The notes under the pieces: generated by a model
Databases searched by the model: none
What the model was told of the DNA's origin: nothing
The model's input: the letters and a program-made list of their open reading frames with translations, nothing else
In this document: positions 8,659-49,838 of the stretch, in pieces
How the letters are laid out: each line of letters opens with the position of its first letter
How positions within the stretch are numbered: position 1 is the stretch's first letter
Source of the DNA: Candidatus Hydrogenedentota bacterium
GTDB lineage: Bacteria > Hydrogenedentota > Hydrogenedentia > Hydrogenedentales > JAGMZX01
Reading direction: 5' to 3'
DNA length: 64,000 bases
Assembly (NCBI GenBank): GCA_029556545.1
Contig: JAKQEQ010000074.1
Coordinates: 1 to 64,000, forward strand
Program-made: the position numbers and the translations under genes

Positions 8659-11600
8659 ATGTATCGTACTTGCCGACCGGCGTCTTACCATTCCGGGAAG
8701 AACGCATGTCTCCTGCTCGCGTTACTGACATGTCTCGCGGGTAACGCATTCACGGCGTCGGCCGATGATCCCTGGGCCGACGCGGTCGTCGATTATCACG
8801 CCATCAATCCGAACGCCGGTTTCAACGCCCCGGACCGGGCGCTCGGCGCGCCCCTCGGCGCGGGGCCGTACAGCCCGAGCAACGCAAGCATCCACTCGAT
8901 TGGCGAAGCAGGCAGCTACGTCACGCTCAAGTTCAACACGCCGGTCGAGGACGACCCCGACAATTTCATGGGCCTCGACTGCATCGTCTACGGCAATGCG
9001 TTCTGGGTCGCGGGCGACCCGAACCGGAAATGGGCCGAGCCGGGGCTCATCGAGATCAGCGAAGACGTAAACGGCAACGGCCTGCCGGACGACCCCTGGT
9101 ACGTGATCCCCGGCAGCCGCAACATCCCGCAATCCGCCGCCTCCGCGGGCATCCCGAACCCGTCGCCGCCACTTGTCGGCCCCTCGGGCGTCGTAAACCC
9201 GAACAGCACGGATGGAAACCCCGACAACAACACCGAGGAGTACGACTGGGGCTATGCCGACATGAGCCCGACGCAGCAGCCGTACCTCGATAACTACGTC
9301 CGCCCGGATAATCCGTTCGAGGTCGGGTTGACGCCGCGCAGCGGCGGCGGCGACGCCTTCGATATTGCCTGGGCCGTCGATGCAAACGGCCAGCCGGCGG
9401 GACTGCGGCGCTTTCACTTCGTCCGTATCTGGACCTTGGTCCGCGACGGCGGCATCGGCGGCGTCACCACCGAGATCGACGCGGTCGCCGATGTCGCGCC
9501 GATGATCGACACCGATGGCGACGGCATCCTCGACGACTATGAGACTCGCGTGGCGGGCACGGACCCGCTCCGGCCAGAGAGCACCGTGCTCGCCCTCGAA
9601 GTCCCCGCGACCGAAGGCGGCAGCCCCGCCGGGACCCAACTGGGCCGCGCGTCCGACGCACAGGGCAACGCCATCACGCTCTATTCGAGCGGTCCGCGCA
9701 CCGGCGCGCGCCCTTACAACTGCACCGTCGATATCCTCACGTTGCCCCTTCCCGGCGGTGTCATTCCCGGCCTCGAAAAGAGCGATGCGGCGCGCGAGTT
9801 CGTGTGCAGCGTGGCGGATTTCGCGGCGGCCCAGGTGCGGGACGCGGAATTTACCATCGCCTATACCGCGGCGGAAATCGCCGGTCTCGACGAATGGGGC
9901 CTGACGCCCTACCGCTACGCCGATGGCGCCTATACACAGGAAGGCATCTCGGAAATCCTCCGCAACGTGGACCTTAACACGGTCGCCTTCCGCGCCGCGC
10001 CGCCGGGCACGTTCGTGCTCGCGTCCATCCCCGGGCCGGGCGATATCGGCGGCCAGACCGCCTCCTTTGCGCTGTTCGCGACCCCCGAAACGGGCGTCGT
10101 GGCGGACCCCGCCAACGTCCTTACCGTCAGTAGCGCGCCCCTCTTGTTCGCGGATGACTCGCCTGTTCCCGAAGGCGCCCCGTTCACGGTCAGCGCCACC
10201 CTCGGGAGCATCCTCACGACCGATGTGGACCCCGCGACGGGAGGCGTCCAGGTCGCGGTTACCGGCCAGACCGTGAGCTTCGCCGTCGCCGCGCCGACCA
10301 CTGCGGGCCGCGCCGTGTTTCGCGCCGTGTCGCTTGACGGCGCGGTGCGCGGCGACATGAACTACGATTTCCTGCCCGGTCCGCCCGCCGGCCCCGTCAG
10401 TATCTTCCTGTATACCGCTGAAGGTCTCATATTCGGGCCGGTCTCGCTGGCGACCGACCTGATTTACGATCAATACGGCAACACGGCTGCGGAGGGGACA
10501 CTGCTCACCGTTGTGGTTGAGGGTGGCCAAGTGACCTCCGCGGATGCCGCGCCTGGACTGCCGGGCCATCAAGTCGCCGTGCGCGGCGGACTCGCCTCGT
10601 TTGTCGTATTGCCCGCCACCGGCGCGAAGGCGATGGTCTCCTTGTCCGTGACGCTCTATGCCGATGTCGCGCTGACGCAGCCTATCGGCTTCGAAATCTT
10701 CTCCTTCGACTACGTGGACCCGGAGGAACTCCCCGTCGCCGGGCCAGCGTCGCTCCTGATCCTCGTGCTGATCCTCGGCTTGTGGCACGGGCGTCCCGCC
10801 CGTGATCGCCGCGTTGTGGCTGGTCTCCCTCGGGTTGTGGCCGGTTTCGCGGCCGCCCGCGCCAAGCGGTCGCCGCGGGGCGGCTTCACGCTCATCGAAC
10901 TTCTGATCGTGATTGGGATCATCGGCATTCTTGCCGCGTTGTTGCTGCCGGCACTGGGCCGCGCGCGCGCGCAGGCGCGCTCAGTGACGTGCGTGAACAA
11001 TCTGCGCCAGCTCTATCTCGCCAACACGATGTACGCCCTCGAACACGACGGCCACTACGTGCCCGCCGCGCCCGACCTCTACGACTTCCTGCTGCCTGGC
11101 GCGGAGCCGGACCATTTCGGCGGGCGCAAGCGTTGGCACGGCGAGCGCGAGACGCCGAACGCAAACAGCGAGTTCGATTTTCGCAAGGGTCCCCTCTTCG
11201 AATACCTGCCCGATGGTCGCGTCGCCGAATGCCCCGAGTTTTTCGAATTGCGTCGGCGCGGCCAGGTCGATAACGCCTTCGAGTCCGGCACCGGCGGTTA
11301 CGGTTACAACATGGCCTACCTCGGCTCGACCTTGTACCAGACCGATGACGCGGTCCGTGCGGTCCGCGTGACGACGCGCGACGTCAATGTCGCCGATCCG
11401 TCGCAGGTCGTCATGTTCGCCGACGCGGCCATGCCGCAGCAAGGCTACATCGTTGAATACGGTTTCCTCGAACCGCCCCGTTTCGTCTCGAAGGACCACC
11501 CCCACGGCCAACCGGGTAACGATCTGTTCGCTTCGCCGTCGCTGCATTTCCGCCACTACGGGCGCGTCAACGTCTGCTGGGCCGACGGTCACATATCCAG

Positions 11601-11733
11601 TGAAAAGTGGGAATGGGCCCCGGAATTCAACGTCTACGGCGCATACAATGCCCGCTGGCCAGTCGGCTGGTTCGGCCCCGACGACAACCGCTTCTTCGAC
11701 GTGCTGCCCTCGGAAATCCTTGTCGCCAAGTAG
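8659..11733 (+). CDS. Cobalamin-controlled surface protein fused in frame to an H-X9-DG pseudopilin
   Basis: 1024 codons holding two proteins. Residues 1-36 are a signal peptide. Residues 37-280 form a conserved module ([39 protein letters not shown]) that I associate with surface proteins near cobalamin riboswitches. A calcium-type [20 protein letters not shown] repeat lies near 286, and the half ends in a membrane-like tail, [14 protein letters not shown] (about 695-708). Residues 709-735 come from a hairpin repeat. A complete prepilin follows: basic leader ending RSPRGG, then [16 protein letters not shown] (about 741), and a C-terminal [12 protein letters not shown], an H-X9-DG match. A prepilin signal cannot work 740 residues inside a protein. 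Either a stop was lost or the pilin half starts separately, for example at in-frame GTG 10837, which gives a 15-residue leader. Inferred role: corrinoid capture at the cell surface. Confidence 0.75.
10786..10858 (+). repeat. Hairpin repeat at the surface-protein/pilin junction
   Basis: Starts with the hairpin CACGGGCG-TCC-CGCCCGTG (10786-10804), identical to one in the array at 15687-15705. It continues with two degenerate copies of the GTTGTGGCCGGT unit that also appears at 30337 and 32626. The repeat is read in frame and joins the two halves of the gene at 8659. Confidence 0.85.
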
Positions 11734-15062: not shown

Positions 15063-16760
15063 ATGACGGAAGTGGGCTCGCGTTCGAGCATCGGATACGC
15101 CGTCGCAATGGTCTTGCTGGCGGCGGCGGCGCTCGCTATCAGGCTGCCGCGCCTGGCCGAGCGTCCTTTTCACGGCGACGAGGCCAACCAGGCGGTGCGC
15201 ACCGGCATCCTGCTCGAAGAGGGTGAATATCGCTACGACCCGCACGAACACCACGGGCCAACCCTGTACTACCTCGCGCTTATCCCGATCCGCCTCAGTG
15301 GCGCGAAAACGCTGGCCGATACGACCGAAGCCGTCTTTCGTATCCTGCCTGTTCTCTTCGGCGTCGGCGTGGTGTTGCTGCTTTGGCCCTTGGGCGCGGC
15401 GCTCGGGCGCGGCGCGGTCTTGGCGGCGGGGCTGCTCACGGTCCTCTCGCCCGCGATGGTCTATTACAGCCGCTACTACATCCAGGAAATGCTCCTCGTC
15501 TTCTTCGCGTTGCTGCTGATACTCGCCGGTTGGCGCTGGTTCCGGCGGCCCCACGGGGGATGGGCCGCGCTCGCCGGATTCGCCGCGGGCGCCATGTTTG
15601 CCACGAAAGAGACATGCGTGGTCCTGTTCTTCGCCATGGCCGTCGCACTGGCCGGCACGATGTTCTGGGCGCGGCTCCACTCGTGGCACGGGCGTCCCGC
15701 CCGTGAAGAATCATGGGCAAGATGCCCATGCCACAGTAGCGCGGGCGTCTTGCCCGTAAAGGAAGTGGGGCGTCCCGCCCCACACGGGGGCAAGATGCCC
15801 CCGCCCCTCGATGCCCATGCCACGTGGAGCCACGCCGCCCTGTTTGTCGGGGTCGCCATCGCCGTCTCGGTCGTCTTGTTTTCGTCCTTCTTCACCCATC
15901 CGCGCGGCATGCTCGATTCGGTCCTCGCATTCACCACCTACTCTCAACGCGCTGAGGGGACGGGCAGCGCCGGCATCCACGACAAGCCTTGGTACTACTA
16001 CCTCCATCTGCTGGCCTACACCTACCGGACCGCCGGCCCGCGCTGGAGCGAAGGACTGGTCCTGCTGCTTGCCGCGGCGGGCGCGGTATCGATTCTCCTC
16101 GTACGGCCCGCCTGCGCCGCGGCATCCTCCGGCCCCGACGCACGCCTTCTCCGATTCCTTCTCCTGTACTGCGTAGTGACCACGGCTATTTACAGCCTCA
16201 TCCCGTACAAGACGCCCTGGAACCTCCTCCCCTTCTATCAGCCCATGATTCTGCTGGCGGGCGTCGGCGTCGCGGCGCTCTTCCGCCGTCTGCGTCCCAT
16301 CCCCCTACGCATCGTGCTCGCCCTGCTGCTCGCCATCGGCGTCGCACATCTCGGCCGGCAGTGCCGCCTCGCCAATTTCGTCTATCCCGCCGACGTGCGC
16401 AACCCCTACGTCTACGCCCACACGAGCACGGCGGTCCGGCGGCTCGTCGAAAGTATCGACCATATCGCCGCCGTGCATCCCGAAGGTAAGGACATGCTCG
16501 TGCGTGTCCTCCAGCCGGACGCCGACTACTGGCCGCTTCCGTGGCTCCTGCGGCAATACAGCCGCGTCGGCTATTGGGGCGACATCCCCGATGCGCCCGA
16601 TGCGCCCGTAATCATCGCCGACCCAAGCCTTGGTCCGGTGCTCCAGGAACGCCTTGCCGGCGAGTACATGGTCGAGATGCACGGCTTGCGCCCCAGCGTG
16701 CTGCGCCTGCTCTTCATCCGCCGCGACCTCTGGGATGCCTTCATGGCCCCGCGACGGTAA
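15063..16760 (+). CDS. Membrane glycosyltransferase-like protein, Agl23/TIGR03663 family
   Basis: 565 residues from ATG 15063, which has AGGAGG immediately upstream. GT-C-type membrane protein. The N-terminal RLPRLAERPFHGDEANQAV, with an Asp/Glu pair in the first periplasmic loop, and the following EGEYRYDPHEHHGPTLYY match the TIGR03663 family (named flippase activity-associated protein Agl23). About ten membrane helices follow. Family members are thought to move sugars from a polyprenyl carrier; donor and acceptor are unknown here. Odd feature: codons from about 15683 to 15823 are a hairpin-repeat array that adds 47 residues rich in Pro, Arg, Gly, Cys and His between two hydrophobic segments without shifting the frame. 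Confidence 0.8.
   Translation: MTEVGSRSSIGYAVAMVLLAAAALAIRLPRLAERPFHGDEANQAVRTGILLEEGEYRYDPHEHHGPTLYYLALIPIRLSGAKTLADTTEAVFRILPVLFGVGVVLLLWPLGAALGRGAVLAAGLLTVLSPAMVYYSRYYIQEMLLVFFALLLILAGWRWFRRPHGGWAALAGFAAGAMFATKETCVVLFFAMAVALAGTMFWARLHSWHGRPAREESWARCPCHSSAGVLPVKEVGRPAPHGGKMPPPLDAHATWSHAALFVGVAIAVSVVLFSSFFTHPRGMLDSVLAFTTYSQRAEGTGSAGIHDKPWYYYLHLLAYTYRTAGPRWSEGLVLLLAAAGAVSILLVRPACAAASSGPDARLLRFLLLYCVVTTAIYSLIPYKTPWNLLPFYQPMILLAGVGVAALFRRLRPIPLRIVLALLLAIGVAHLGRQCRLANFVYPADVRNPYVYAHTSTAVRRLVESIDHIAAVHPEGKDMLVRVLQPDADYWPLPWLLRQYSRVGYWGDIPDAPDAPVIIADPSLGPVLQERLAGEYMVEMHGLRPSVLRLLFIRRDLWDAFMAPRR
15673..15831 (+). repeat. Array of five hairpins inserted in frame in the Agl23-like gene
   Basis: Outer inverted repeat GGCTCCAC (15673-15680) / GTGGAGCC (15824-15831), then GTGGCA / TGCCAC. 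Inside are five perfect or near-perfect hairpins: 15687-15705 (loop TCC), 15713-15729 (loop AGA), 15742-15756 (loop TCT), 15765-15783 (loop TCC), 15786-15802 (loop AGA). The stems differ from one another yet stay complementary. The core 15683-15823 is 141 nt, exactly 47 codons. The organisation recalls REP/REPIN elements mobilised by RAYT transposases, though none is encoded here. Confidence 0.88.
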
Positions 16761-29181: not shown

Positions 29182-30315
29182 CTACAGCGCCGTGAAGACG
29201 TCGCGGAGGCGCGCTTCCTCGCGCTCCCAGTTGTATTTGGTCTCGACGATGCGGCGGCCGTTGCCGCCGAGGCGCGCGGCCTCGGCGGGGTCGCGCAGGA
29301 GGCGCAGGACGGCGTCGGCGATGGCCTCGGGGCGGGTGACGTCGACGAGGAGGCCGGCATCGGCCTCGCGGACGATGCGCGCAACCTCGACGGCGAAGTC
29401 GGGCGCGACGACGGGCTTGCCTTCGCGCAGGTAGTCGAAGAGTTTGTGCGGCATGGCGAGGGTGTGGTTGACGAGGCCCGGTTGAAAGAGGATAAGCCCG
29501 ACGCGGGACACGGCGATGTGCGCGGGCACGGCCTCGTAGGGCACAACGCCGAGGATGTCAAAGTGCGCGTCGAGTCCGGCCTCGCGGATGGCCCCGCGGT
29601 AGTCGTCGAGGCTGCCGTAGACGTAGCCGCCGAGGAGGACGCACTTGATGTCCGGGACTTCGCGCGCGATACGCTTCATAGCGTCAAGAAGTTGGTACGC
29701 GCCGCGCACGTCGCCGAACACGCCCTGGTGGATGATGGTGGGGCGGTCGGCGTAGCGCGCGCGCAGTTCCTCGGGGATATCGGCGCACGGGGGCTGCAAG
29801 TGATTCGTGTTGATGATGGTCGTGCGCGGCACCGTCAGCCCCGCCCACTCGGCCTCGAAGCTGTCGCGCGTCAGGATCACGTGGTCGGTGCACCGCGCGA
29901 AGAGGCGCATGAACCGGATGGTCAGCCATGTCACGAACGGTTGCAGGAAACGCGGGAAGAACTTCGCGAACTCAGTGGGCACGTGTTCGTGCATGTCGAA
30001 GACGACCTTGCCGCCCGCGACGCCCTTGAGGATCAGCGCGGCCACCCACGACTCCGGCTCGACGGCGAGGTAGGCGTCGGCCCGTTCGCGGCGGCCAAGC
30101 CGCACAAGCCGCGCGAGCGCGATGAGCCGCCGCCGCTTCGACGGCGGCGTTGGAATGCGCACGAAGCGGATGCCGCCGGCTTCGTCCGGCAAGGGCGCGT
30201 CGCTCGGGCAAATCGAAACGACCTCGTGGCCCGCGGCGTGCAGGCTGCGTGCGACCTTCTGGTAGACACGCTTGTCGTAAGGCTCGTGCAGGACGCTGAG
30301 AATGCAGATTTTCAC
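29182..30315 (-). CDS. Glycosyltransferase family 4
   Basis: 377 residues, GT-B fold. The N-terminal MKICILSVLHEPYDKRVYQK and ARSLHAAGHEVVSICPSD form the acceptor half. The donor half has HQGVFGDVRGAYQLLDAMKR, AHIAVSRVGLILFQPGLVNH and MPHKLFDYLREGKPVVAPDF, the E-x7-E-like nucleotide-sugar site. It probably adds a sugar to a cell-surface polysaccharide from the cytoplasmic side. Its ATG overlaps the stop of the upstream dehydrogenase gene (30312-30315), so the two are translationally coupled. Confidence 0.88.
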   Translation of the reverse strand: MKICILSVLHEPYDKRVYQKVARSLHAAGHEVVSICPSDAPLPDEAGGIRFVRIPTPPSKRRRLIALARLVRLGRRERADAYLAVEPESWVAALILKGVAGGKVVFDMHEHVPTEFAKFFPRFLQPFVTWLTIRFMRLFARCTDHVILTRDSFEAEWAGLTVPRTTIINTNHLQPPCADIPEELRARYADRPTIIHQGVFGDVRGAYQLLDAMKRIAREVPDIKCVLLGGYVYGSLDDYRGAIREAGLDAHFDILGVVPYEAVPAHIAVSRVGLILFQPGLVNHTLAMPHKLFDYLREGKPVVAPDFAVEVARIVREADAGLLVDVTRPEAIADAVLRLLRDPAEAARLGGNGRRIVETKYNWEREEARLRDVFTAL

Positions 30316-32513
30316 GGCTGCGCGTCCGCAGATTTCGTTGTGGCCGGTCTCCCGACCGTGCCACCTCCCGACCGAAGGTCTCCACTCGATTCACCCCGCG
30401 CGTCCGCCAGCGCCTCGTGGGCGATGCGTGTCGCGCGCAGGCCGTCCGACGCGGTCACCTCGAGCGCCGCCTCGCCCCGCACCGCGCGGATGAAGTTTTC
30501 GAGCAGGCCGTACATGCCCTTGTCCGCCCGACCCGGCTTAACGCTCCTGCCCGGCGCGCCCGCGCAGGTGATGTCCCGAAAGTCGTCGATAATGATCCCC
30601 GCGCCGGCCCCGTAGATTTCGATGCGCTCCTTCGGCAGGCCCTCGCTTCCCACGCCGCAATAGACGACCGTGGCTACCGATCCGTCCGGAAACCGCAACA
30701 GGACCGAGAGATTATCTTCACCCGCGCCCGCGCCGCCGCGCAGGCTCTCCGCGCGCACGGAAGCCGGGTCCCCATCGACAAGCCAGCAAACGAAGTCGAA
30801 AAAGTGCACCGCCTCGCCCAGGATGCGCCCGCCGCCCTGCACGGGGTCGAGCGCCCAATGCCCCGGCGGCAACGGCCCCGCGTTGCAGCGGTAGAGGACC
30901 GTCTTCGGCCCCGGCATCCCGCGCAACGCCGCCTTGGCCTCTTGCGCGAACCGCGAGAAACGGCGATTGAAGCCCACGGTCAGCAGCAGGCCCGTCTCGG
31001 CCACTGCGTCGCGCACCGCCTCCGCGTCCGCGACCGTAAGCGCCAGCGGCTTCTCGACAAAAACGTGCTTGCCCGCGCGCAGCGCCTCGATAGCCATCGC
31101 CGCGTGCGTGTCGTGCCGCGTGGCAACCAGGACGGCCTGCACGGCTGGGTCCGCCAGCGCCTCGCGGTAGTCCGTGCCGCACGACCGCGCGCCGAAACGT
31201 TGCGCCGTCTCCTTTGCGACGTGCCCCTGCAGATCGATGACGCTCTCGACGCCACAGCCGGGAATCTTCGCGAGGTTTGGCAGATGATTCGCCCGCGCCA
31301 TGCTGCCCGCGCCGATTACCGCGACGCCGACGCTGCCCGAGACAGGCTGCGCCGCCTTCAGTTCGAGGCGCGTAGCAGCGGGCGCGGCCATGTCGGGCGC
31401 GGCGCCGTGGTCGATGAGCGCGGCGATCACCTCGGCGGGCCGATCGCGCAGCGCGGCGTAAGCTTCGGCGGCCAGATCGACGGGCTGCACGAGGCTGATG
31501 AGCGGCCGCACGCGCACCCGACCCTCGGCCAGCATGCGCAGGAACGCGCTCATGTTTCGCCCTTCTGTCCACCGCACGTAGCCTATCGGGTAATCGACGC
31601 CCGATTCCTCGTATTGCGGGTCGTAGCGGCCCGGCCCGTACGATCGCGACAAGCGGAACTCGACCTCTTTCGCGTAGAGGCCCTCCCGCTTCAGGTCCAT
31701 GCCCACGTCGCCGACCACCACCACGCGCCCGCGCGGGCGGCACAGGTCTATGGCGACGTTCGCGAGGGCGCTCTCGCGCGAGGCCGCGCACACAAGAACG
31801 CCGTCCACGCCGTGCCCCGCGCTCGCTTCGCGCGCCGCCGCATCGAGTTCCTCCGGCGCGCAGGCCGCGTCCGCGCCCAGTTCCCGCGCGAGGTCGCGCC
31901 GCGCGGCTATCGGATCGGAACCCAGGACGTGGCAGCCCGCCGCGCGCAACAATTGCACCGCGAGCAACCCGACCAAGCCAAGCCCCATAACGACGAAGGT
32001 CTCGCCCAGCGCCGCCTCGGCGCGGCGTACCCCGTGCAACGCGACCGCGCCCAACGCGACAAATGCCGCCTCCTCGAAGGCCACGCCGTCGGGAATCGGC
32101 GTGAGCAGGTATTGCGGCACAACGACGTACTCGGCGTGGCTCGCATGGCCGACGCCCGCGCACGCAACGCGGTCGCCGACCGCGTACCCGTGCAAGTCCG
32201 CGCCGCACGCGGTCACCACGCCCGCCGCGCTGTATCCTGGGGCCGTGGCCGCGCCGAGCTTGTCCCGCACCGCCTCGAATGCGCTGCGCACGCCGACCGT
32301 GGCCAGCTTGCGCTTGAGTTTCTCGATGTTCAGCGGGTCCCGCGCCTTCCGCAGGAGGTACGCCGCCGTCCCGCCCTCGGACACCGCCGCCGCCTCCGTG
32401 CCCGTGCTGATCAGGGAGCGGCTCAGCCGCACCAGCGCCGTCTTCGGTCCCGCGCACGGGCGCGGCACGTCCTCGACAAGCACCTGTCCGCCTCGCAGCA
32501 ATACTTGTTTCAT
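30312..32513 (-). CDS. Two-domain oxidoreductase: zinc-type alcohol dehydrogenase fused to Gfo/Idh/MocA
   Basis: 733 residues. Residues 1-365 are a medium-chain dehydrogenase-like domain (PGYSAAGVVTACGADLHGYA, GDRVACAGVGHASHAEYVVV, VVMGLGLVGLLAVQLLRAAG, a Rossmann site). Residues about 385-700 are a Gfo/Idh/MocA domain (VAVIGAGSMARANHLPNLAK, AGKHVFVEKPLALTVADAEA with the catalytic-type EKP). Such fusions are frequent in polysaccharide gene clusters and are thought to modify nucleotide-sugars. The last 20 or so residues (GGGTVGRPATTKSADAQ) are encoded by a hairpin repeat, and a direct copy of that repeat lies 113 bp upstream of the start. Coupled to the GT4 gene downstream. Confidence 0.88.
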   Translation of the reverse strand: MKQVLLRGGQVLVEDVPRPCAGPKTALVRLSRSLISTGTEAAAVSEGGTAAYLLRKARDPLNIEKLKRKLATVGVRSAFEAVRDKLGAATAPGYSAAGVVTACGADLHGYAVGDRVACAGVGHASHAEYVVVPQYLLTPIPDGVAFEEAAFVALGAVALHGVRRAEAALGETFVVMGLGLVGLLAVQLLRAAGCHVLGSDPIAARRDLARELGADAACAPEELDAAAREASAGHGVDGVLVCAASRESALANVAIDLCRPRGRVVVVGDVGMDLKREGLYAKEVEFRLSRSYGPGRYDPQYEESGVDYPIGYVRWTEGRNMSAFLRMLAEGRVRVRPLISLVQPVDLAAEAYAALRDRPAEVIAALIDHGAAPDMAAPAATRLELKAAQPVSGSVGVAVIGAGSMARANHLPNLAKIPGCGVESVIDLQGHVAKETAQRFGARSCGTDYREALADPAVQAVLVATRHDTHAAMAIEALRAGKHVFVEKPLALTVADAEAVRDAVAETGLLLTVGFNRRFSRFAQEAKAALRGMPGPKTVLYRCNAGPLPPGHWALDPVQGGGRILGEAVHFFDFVCWLVDGDPASVRAESLRGGAGAGEDNLSVLLRFPDGSVATVVYCGVGSEGLPKERIEIYGAGAGIIIDDFRDITCAGAPGRSVKPGRADKGMYGLLENFIRAVRGEAALEVTASDGLRATRIAHEALADARGESSGDLRSGGGTVGRPATTKSADAQP
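30337..30383 (+). repeat. GTTGTGGCCGGTCTCCC hairpin repeat, copy inside the oxidoreductase C-terminus
   Basis: Two hairpins: CGGTC-TCCC-GACCG near 30346 and GACC-GAA-GGTC (30370-30380). It matches 32626-32673 closely in the same orientation. It lies in the coding end of the gene at 30312 and supplies its tail residues. Confidence 0.82.
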
Positions 32514-48079: not shown

Positions 48080-48718
48080 TCATTTGCCCTCGGCGAGGCG
48101 CCAGTCGTACCAGACCACGTCCGCCGCGCTTTCGGCGCGGGACAGGACCAGCGCGCGCCCGCCGCGCGCCGGGGTGAAGGTCCGCTCGTAGCGCTTGCAG
48201 ACGCCCTCCGACGGCAATAGCGTGATGCGGGCCGCGTCCTCGGCGGCGGGCGCGCCGTCCGCGCCCAGTTCCCGCACGCCGACCGACACGCCGCGGCCGG
48301 CCCGGAGTTCGGCGGTCACGCTCAGCGCGTAGGCGGTGTCCGGTTCGAGGACGACTTCCGCGCTGAAATGCCGGTCGGGCGTGGCGGCGGCGTCGCCCTC
48401 GTTCCAGACCTGGCGCGCGGCGAAGTTCGAGCCGCTCAGCCCGACCATGCGCGCGAGGCGCGAGGACCGGGGATCGGGAGGCTGGAACTCTTCGGGCGTG
48501 GCGGCGCCGGCCCACCACGTCTTGAAGTCGCCGTTTGGCACGAGGTTATGGCGTGGCGAACGCACGTCAATCGGGGTGACGGCCACGACTTTCATAGCGC
48601 CGGGGGGCGGCGCGTCGTCTTGGGCGGGGCGCTGGCCGCACGACAAACCGACACAAACACACAATAGCGCGATCGCGATCGGGGCGCGGTTTATGGTTAT
48701 TTCAGTCAGTTTGCACAA
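48080..48718 (-). CDS. Lipoprotein with jelly-roll carbohydrate-binding-like domain
   Basis: 212 residues. The signal ends in LSCG (lipobox, Cys about 27). The mature part begins with RHNLVPNGDFKTWWAGAATP, the typical opening NLVPNGDF-x-x-W of CBM4/9-type jelly-roll modules, then a beta-rich body ending TPARGGRALVLSRAESAADV and YDWRLAEG. It probably binds a glycan at the outer membrane. A second protein of this style lies at 54546-55142 within the glycan cluster. Confidence 0.65.
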   Translation of the reverse strand: MCKLTEITINRAPIAIALLCVCVGLSCGQRPAQDDAPPPGAMKVVAVTPIDVRSPRHNLVPNGDFKTWWAGAATPEEFQPPDPRSSRLARMVGLSGSNFAARQVWNEGDAAATPDRHFSAEVVLEPDTAYALSVTAELRAGRGVSVGVRELGADGAPAAEDAARITLLPSEGVCKRYERTFTPARGGRALVLSRAESAADVVWYDWRLAEGK

Positions 48719-48812: not shown

Positions 48813-48882
48813 CGTGGCACAGTCGTGGCACGGGCGTCTCGCTTGTGGTGTTGAGGAACATGGGCAGGATGCCTATGCCACG
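48813..48882 (+). repeat. Degenerate hairpin repeat before the glycan cluster
   Basis: Contains GTGGCACGGGCGTC and GGGCAGGATGCCTATGCCAC, decayed versions of the hairpins seen intact at 15683-15823. It lies upstream of the terminator and promoter that separate the lipoprotein gene from the exporter genes. Confidence 0.7.
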
Positions 48883-49058: not shown

Positions 49059-49838
49059 ATGCAGGCATCGTTTGACATCTGGCCGTACCGGCATCTGATC
49101 GCGCATAAGGCGTGGGCCGATTTCCGGGCCGACAGCCAGCGGAATTACCTGGGCGTGGCGTGGTGGCTGCTGGATCCGATCATCAACACGTTCATTTACT
49201 ATCTGGTTTTCGGGGTGTTCATGCGGCGGGGGGAGCCGGATTTCGTGCCGTATCTGGTGACGGGGATCATCGGGTGGTTCTGGTTTTTTCAGGGGGTGGT
49301 GGGCGGTTCGGGCGCCATCTACAGCAGCGTGAACCTGCTGCGGCAGGTGGCGATCAACCGGGCGGTGTTCCCGTTGAGCCGGGTAATCACGGCGACGTAC
49401 AAGTTCGGGTTCTCGCTGATCGTGCTGTTCGGCGCGCTGCTCATCTACGGCTATCACCCGACGGTGTGGTGGCTGCTGCTGCCGGTGATCATGGTTGTCG
49501 AGTTCATGCTTATCGCGGCGGTGAGCCTGCTGCTGGCGTCGGTGGTGCCGTTTGTGCCGGACCTGTCGAGCTTCATTCCGTACGCGCTGCGGCTCGGGTT
49601 CTTCCTCTCGTGCGTGATGTACAAGCTCGAATGGCTCTCGCCGAGGTCCCAGTTCTACCTGAAGCTGAACCCGATGGTGCACGTGCTGAACAGCTACCGC
49701 AACGTGCTGATGTACGAACAGGCCCCGCACTGGGGCGTACTGGCGGGGCTGGCGGCGGCGGCGGTCGTCGTCGGCGCGGCGGGCATGGGGCTTATCATCC
49801 GGCTGTCGGGCCTGTACGCGAAACGGATCATGCAATGA
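49059..49838 (+). CDS. Polysaccharide ABC exporter permease (Wzm type)
   Basis: 259 residues from ATG 49059; a GTG 42 bp upstream would start inside a hairpin repeat (49024-49040). Six membrane helices with the O-antigen exporter pattern: DSQRNYLGVAWWLLDPIINT at the N-terminus, YLVTGIIGWFWFFQGVVGGS, INRAVFPLSRVITATYKFGF, and KLNPMVHVLNSYRNVLMYEQ near the end. It moves finished lipid-linked glycans across the inner membrane with the ATPase downstream, which begins within its last codons (ATGA at 49835-49838). Confidence 0.9.
   Translation: MQASFDIWPYRHLIAHKAWADFRADSQRNYLGVAWWLLDPIINTFIYYLVFGVFMRRGEPDFVPYLVTGIIGWFWFFQGVVGGSGAIYSSVNLLRQVAINRAVFPLSRVITATYKFGFSLIVLFGALLIYGYHPTVWWLLLPVIMVVEFMLIAAVSLLLASVVPFVPDLSSFIPYALRLGFFLSCVMYKLEWLSPRSQFYLKLNPMVHVLNSYRNVLMYEQAPHWGVLAGLAAAAVVVGAAGMGLIIRLSGLYAKRIMQ

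Follow-up and report, generated by a model that had tools for sequence, protein, structure and literature searches.

The Agl23-type (TIGR03663) GT-C membrane glycosyltransferase gene at positions 15063-16760 (forward strand; 565 amino acids plus stop) of the analysed DNA (the window, 64,000 nt in full) harbors an in-frame REP/REPIN array at 15683-15823. The array comprises 141 nt, or 47 codons, and encodes about residues 207-254 of the protein. The best explanation, to which we assign a probability of about 0.87, is the tolerated insertion of a non-autonomous REPIN cluster into a loop of the glycosyltransferase. Non-autonomous REP elements, arranged as REPIN dimers, would have entered a length-variable loop of the enzyme in the ancestor of the genus, later REPINs would have landed in or beside the first copy, and the survivors would be only those versions in which the total frame was kept open. 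A Y1/RAYT-type transposase would probably have acted in trans on the hairpin DNA as its substrate. In-frame REPs are already known (PMC3733652); what is added is a new host phylum, an array of mixed sub-families and a same-site comparison with a one-sided frame change. These data extend protein-decorating REP elements to Candidatus Hydrogenedentota, a little-studied phylum, and the comparison of the same site in two species separates a tolerated linker from a conserved peptide.

Composition of the array and its host protein

The array is bounded by GTGGCA (15683-15688) and TGCCAC (15818-15823), 141 nt from end to end, and only one of its three forward frames is open, namely the frame in use, in agreement with the length and open frame reported by the first-pass annotation. 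All of its parts are described on the forward strand. The first is an intact sub-family A REPIN of 52 nt (15683-15734), consisting of a GTGG tag, CACGGGCG-TCC-CGCCCGTG, an AAGAAT spacer, CATGGGCA-AGA-TGCCCATG and a CCAC tag, a pattern common to about 18 intact dimers genome-wide. It is followed by the left hairpin of a second A-type element (15736-15758; tag GTAG, loop TCT), which is a direct repeat (D2) of hairpin 1 with 81% identity, and by a sub-family B REPIN (15761-15808) composed of a GGAA tag (consensus GGAG), GTGGGGCG-TCC-CGCCCCAC and CGGGGGCA-AGA-TGCCCCCG, with the same layout as in other genomic copies, e.g. AGGAGGTGGGGCGTCCCGCCCCACA..CGGGGGCAAGATGCCCCCGCTCCT. The right end of an A-type element (15810-15823), a half stem with a CCAC tag, completes the array, its GATGCCCATGCCAC being identical to 15721-15734. 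On sequence grounds, the array reads as an intact REPIN, half of a second one, a sub-family B REPIN and then the missing end of the second. The segments 15736-15758 and 15810-15823 bracket the B REPIN, as would be expected of a nested insertion, and insertion of one REPIN into another, next to a third, would leave such an array; the order of events is deduced from this arrangement.

Five hairpins with differing, complementary stems and with loops TCC, AGA (TCT on the other strand) and TCT were found, as the first reading had described. Four of the stems are perfect over 8 bp (15687-15694/15698-15705, 15712-15719/15723-15730, 15765-15772/15776-15783 and 15785-15792/15796-15803), and the fifth (15742-15757) is weaker than these. 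The sequence GGGCRNNNYGCCC has six matches in the window, against 1.5 expected. Two outer inverted repeats had also been proposed to wrap the hairpins. While GTGGCA/TGCCAC does bound the element, the GGCTCCAC/GTGGAGCC repeat, although present, was rejected as a part of it: its left (15673-15680) and right (15824-15831) arms, both forward, are host coding sequence, other copies lack complementarity between their flanks, and the sister-species sequence differs there; the repeat is incidental.

Profile searches matched the host ORF to TIGR03663 (E=9.6e-62; 209 bits, cut-off 126) and its protein also to PMT_2. The AlphaFold2 model of the protein (mean pLDDT 83.6) has a GT-C fold that is mostly confident outside the insert, and Foldseek related it by fold to the GT-C enzymes ArnT, AglB, PMT and OST. 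Between helices 185-208 and 251-272, pLDDT drops to about 43-54 (residues 211-250); the insert is thus modelled as a low-confidence, unstructured loop joining two transmembrane helices. Assuming an N-in orientation, by analogy with GT-C enzymes, the loop would be cytosolic. The 47 encoded residues, which include the stretch SWHGRPAREESWAR, would then form an unstructured inter-helix loop with no fixed sequence requirement and would presumably be neutral, while a functional role of the loop is possible.

A repeat family with compensated stems

The core GGGCRTCYYGCCC occurs in 248 copies (125 and 123 on the two strands) in the 6.1-Mb source genome, a draft of 195 contigs, against five (2 and 3) in the reversed control. 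Intact A dimers are found at about 18 places genome-wide, as judged from a nearly self-complementary pattern that matched 18 times in the forward and 19 times in the reverse orientation. The prediction that the hairpins would recur elsewhere in the genome is therefore borne out. An unbiased search through 1.08 Mb for hairpins with a 4-nt tag (limited to G[TCG][AG]G), an 8-bp stem and any 3-nt loop returned 199, of which 67 had TCC and 52 TCT loops; the reversed control returned 91, among which TCC and TCT were outside the six commonest loops and the commonest loop had n=6. Chance hairpins in a GC-rich gene were ruled out by the core counts and by this loop bias. The 119 strict hairpins with TCC or TCT loops carried the tags GTGG (87), GGAG (17), GCGG (7) and GTAG (6). 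The family can be described by a GTRG tag (mostly GTGG), a covarying 8-bp stem, a TCC or TCT loop and an arrangement as inverted dimers (REPINs) about 52 nt long. The likeness to REP/REPIN elements seen at first reading holds for the tag, the 8-bp stem, the 3-nt loop, the inverted dimers and the high copy number.

The compensation in the family stems, also claimed by the first-pass annotation, is real. The loop-closing pair was Watson-Crick in 117 of 137 hairpins (G-C in 66, A-T in 51), while shuffled sets gave a mean of 63 and a maximum of 81, and the pair next out from the GGGC block was C-G, T-A or G-C in 119 of the 137, far exceeding the shuffles. Neighbouring hairpins were paired head-out in 34 of 42 cases, and no homodimer was found among 19 A-type dimers (5.3 expected, P about 0.002). 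In the sampled loci (L066-L085 and L166-L205), 18 of 19 A-type dimers have CAT at the stem base of one hairpin and CAC in the other, and all 19 have A next to the loop in one hairpin and G in the other.

Alternatively, the hairpins might be kept for a role in the mRNA, by slowing translation, protecting it from RNase or acting in intragenic regulation. The predicted fold of the array is very stable (MFE -116.5 kcal/mol across 175 nt), stems covary genome-wide, and REPs have been discussed as RNA elements elsewhere (PMC3733652). The covariation is, however, a property of the whole family and of mostly intergenic copies, and so points to the element rather than to a role in this gene. Moreover, the array of the sister species has a different predicted fold with fewer hairpins, and Rfam matches were all sub-threshold, with no family at the gathering score, so a known structured RNA was rejected. 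Maintenance for an mRNA role is accordingly considered very unlikely.

The site of the array in the sister species and other homologues

Named homologues of the host protein come from Candidatus Hydrogenedentota, Aminicenantes, Verrucomicrobia and others. Repeat cores were detected within the gene in only one of 109 homologues (L037), from G001, the sole same-genus genome, and the repeat was absent from the compared homologues outside the genus, as the first-pass annotation had expected of an insertion. The empty site is known from outside the genus alone, and the insertion itself was not caught. The distance between the ATKET and FSSFFTH anchors is 93 residues in the window protein and 75 in G001, against a median of 57 (5-95% range 51-75) over 110 sequences including the window protein. 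When the repeat is subtracted, about 46-47 residues remain between the anchors in both species.

The G001 protein is 78% identical to the host protein and has a related array in the same place, with continuous flanks. Its element is about 85 nt long, its left flank differs by 2 nt, and the gap in length relative to the window corresponds to 18 codons. At the left end the repeat is read as RGTGILPV in G001 and as WHGRPAR here, while the right-end DAHAT is common to both; with the left half in different frames and the lengths 18 codons apart, the encoded peptide is not conserved. From the sequences of the two arrays, the common ancestor of both species probably already carried an array at the site, the left part of which later changed frame, or else the site was hit twice, by two independent insertions.

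The G001 locus also bears on the suspicion that the array is a chimera produced by a repeat-induced misjoin, or that the gene is a decaying pseudogene. Repeats do cause misassembly, and the source is a 195-contig draft, but a separate genome of the same genus carries an array at this position too. In addition, the host ORF is open throughout, family-typical conserved residues are found both before and after the insert, and a codon-usage script gave positive coding scores on either side. An artefact or a pseudogene is thus extremely improbable.

Tolerance of the array in a membrane enzyme, as put forward in the first-pass annotation, remains the best explanation; its further suggestion of recruitment into a protein linker is a much less probable reading. 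Under recruitment, the element would have been domesticated and its loop would have a selected function, e.g. in partner binding or spacing. The frame has been kept at the same site in two species, and the loops of other homologues are likewise long, charged and variable, with up to 100 residues from anchor to anchor, both of which are compatible with this idea. Against it stand the change of frame and length described above, the lack of structure in the AlphaFold2 model and the presence of the same repeat in many unrelated genes, and we regard recruitment as unlikely.

Other host genes, transposases and known REP systems

Placement was evaluated in 1.08 Mb picked around elements, window included. 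Among 78 strict clusters in this sample, 47 were intergenic, 11 lay across a gene edge and 20 were within predicted genes, although genes outside the window were called by a home-made codon-usage script trained on the sample and single cases need care. Random positions in the sample fell within genes in 86% and between genes in 13%. Intergenic copies lay close behind the preceding gene, at a median of 19.5 nt from its 3' end. Within genes, inserts separate the E3-binding from the catalytic domain of an E2 acyltransferase (L068), two domains of an alginate lyase (L170) and, in a GT2-GT4 fusion (L183), the GT2 part from the GT4 part; in IcmF (L169) the insert immediately precedes the P-loop. Order-level homologues of IcmF and E2 have different, variable linkers at the insert position. 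In these proteomes, stretches like GTGVSPV, MGILPM and HGRDARAT can be translated repeats rather than domains. The IcmF of G001 (L211) has a longer stretch (RGVDVLPV...SDAHGAA) where that of the window genome has a REPIN, and this stretch resembles a decayed copy. Some single-core 'genic' matches, e.g. in a molybdopterin oxidoreductase (L078), look native, and a stricter hairpin definition was adopted for this reason.

Intact A-type REPINs were stop-free in two of the three frames (33/34 and 32/34), against about 68% for shuffled sequences, both orientations being counted. It is conceivable, though doubtful, that the repeat acts as a frame-permissive mobile linker which repeatedly rebuilds interdomain loops across the Hydrogenedentota proteome and has been selected partly for codability.

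The first-pass annotation had also suggested a search for a RAYT/TnpA_REP transposase. A profile search revealed five Y1_Tnp genes in the genome, one of which passed the cut-off of NCBIfam REP_Tyr_transpos (99 vs 80 bits), while two were below the cut-off but still had this as their best family, and the remaining two were closer to IS200 TnpA. RAYT-type transposases are thus present, but none of the five genes is flanked by the family stem: no A or B core was found within 1.5 kb of any of them. The RAYT at C9:25930-26208 is flanked by GTAG-ACGAGGCT-TCC-AGCCTCGT hairpins, which have four genomic copies, all at that locus, and which are similar to the large family in tag, stem length and loop but different in the stem. 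The surrounding RAYT-like gene region (L034 1417-2147; G000:C9:25846-26643) has direct ACGAGGCT hairpins on both sides. Over 60 genomes, repeat count and Y1 count were correlated with a Spearman coefficient of 0.55, of which little remained once genome size was taken into account (partial 0.24), and 28 cores occur in a genome without any Y1 match (G009). Excess cores were found in many Hydrogenedentota genomes and in three genomes (G061, G063 and G064) reached via loci titled Akkermansiaceae and Verrucomicrobia; none were found in the Aminicenantes, Neomarinimicrobiota, KSB1 and Acidobacteria genomes tried.

REPINs reportedly consist of a pair of inverted REPs separated by a short spacer and are associated with RAYT transposases, an account credited to Bertels and Rainey in 2011 and Nunvar et al. 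in 2010. As in such REPIN/RAYT systems, the unit here is an inverted pair with a short spacer and the genome contains genes for Y1-type REP transposases; the difference is that no RAYT flanked by the stem family of the array was found in the genome examined. No paper was found when the literature was searched with the sequence of the repeat or of its peptides.

GTAG-type REPs were described in the PVC group by Di Nocera et al. 2013 (PMC3733652), with a GTGG tag in most GTAG-20 copies of O. terrae; intragenic copies encode 20-30 residues and clusters 43-82, dimers are frequently heterodimers, and linkers or loops were suggested as tolerated places, an account that the present array fits. The tag, the compensated stem (8 bp, within the 6-9 bp of such REPs) with a 3-nt loop, and the copy number and placement of GTAG-type REPs were all found here. 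GTAG-20 of Opitutus terrae is likewise similar in its GTRG tag (mostly GTGG), short stem-loop, frequent heterodimers and placement, mostly intergenic near gene 3' ends with some copies within ORFs, a likeness drawn from the published description; the stem seen here is CAYGGGCR and the loop TCY. Its hosts belong to the PVC group, which counts among the similarities; here the host phylum is Hydrogenedentota, and two sub-families are mixed in the present array. Rickettsia palindromic elements (RPE) also occur in protein-coding genes, RPE-4 and RPE-6 being CGTC-tagged and RPE-1 longer (PMC3733652). They are alike in being palindromic repeats placed in frame within unrelated proteins (here IcmF, E2 acyltransferase, alginate lyase and GT2-GT4 fusion) but differ in sequence, since hairpins of the array and of intact dimers start with GTGG, GTAG or GGAG-like tags and not with CGTC.

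Further hairpins were observed in the window. A single A-type hairpin at 10782-10804 is located where an LPVAG-plus-hydrophobic C-terminal segment ends in ORF 8659-11733, which continues in frame beyond the hairpin into a pseudopilin-like N-methylation motif at residue 739. This ORF was at first counted as a genic insertion and then rejected, as it looks like two joined genes; the two may have been fused when the repeat eliminated a stop codon, or the second gene may start inside. A further A-type hairpin (48859-48881), which carries a CCAC tag, lies between predicted genes, one ending at 48595 and the next starting at 49059. A third hairpin type, GTGGCCGGTCTCCCGACCGTGCCAC, with a TCC loop, is found at 30340-30364, near the 3' end of gene 30312-32483, and the related GTGGCCGGTCT recurs in the sampled loci, with some copies adjoining A-type dimers.
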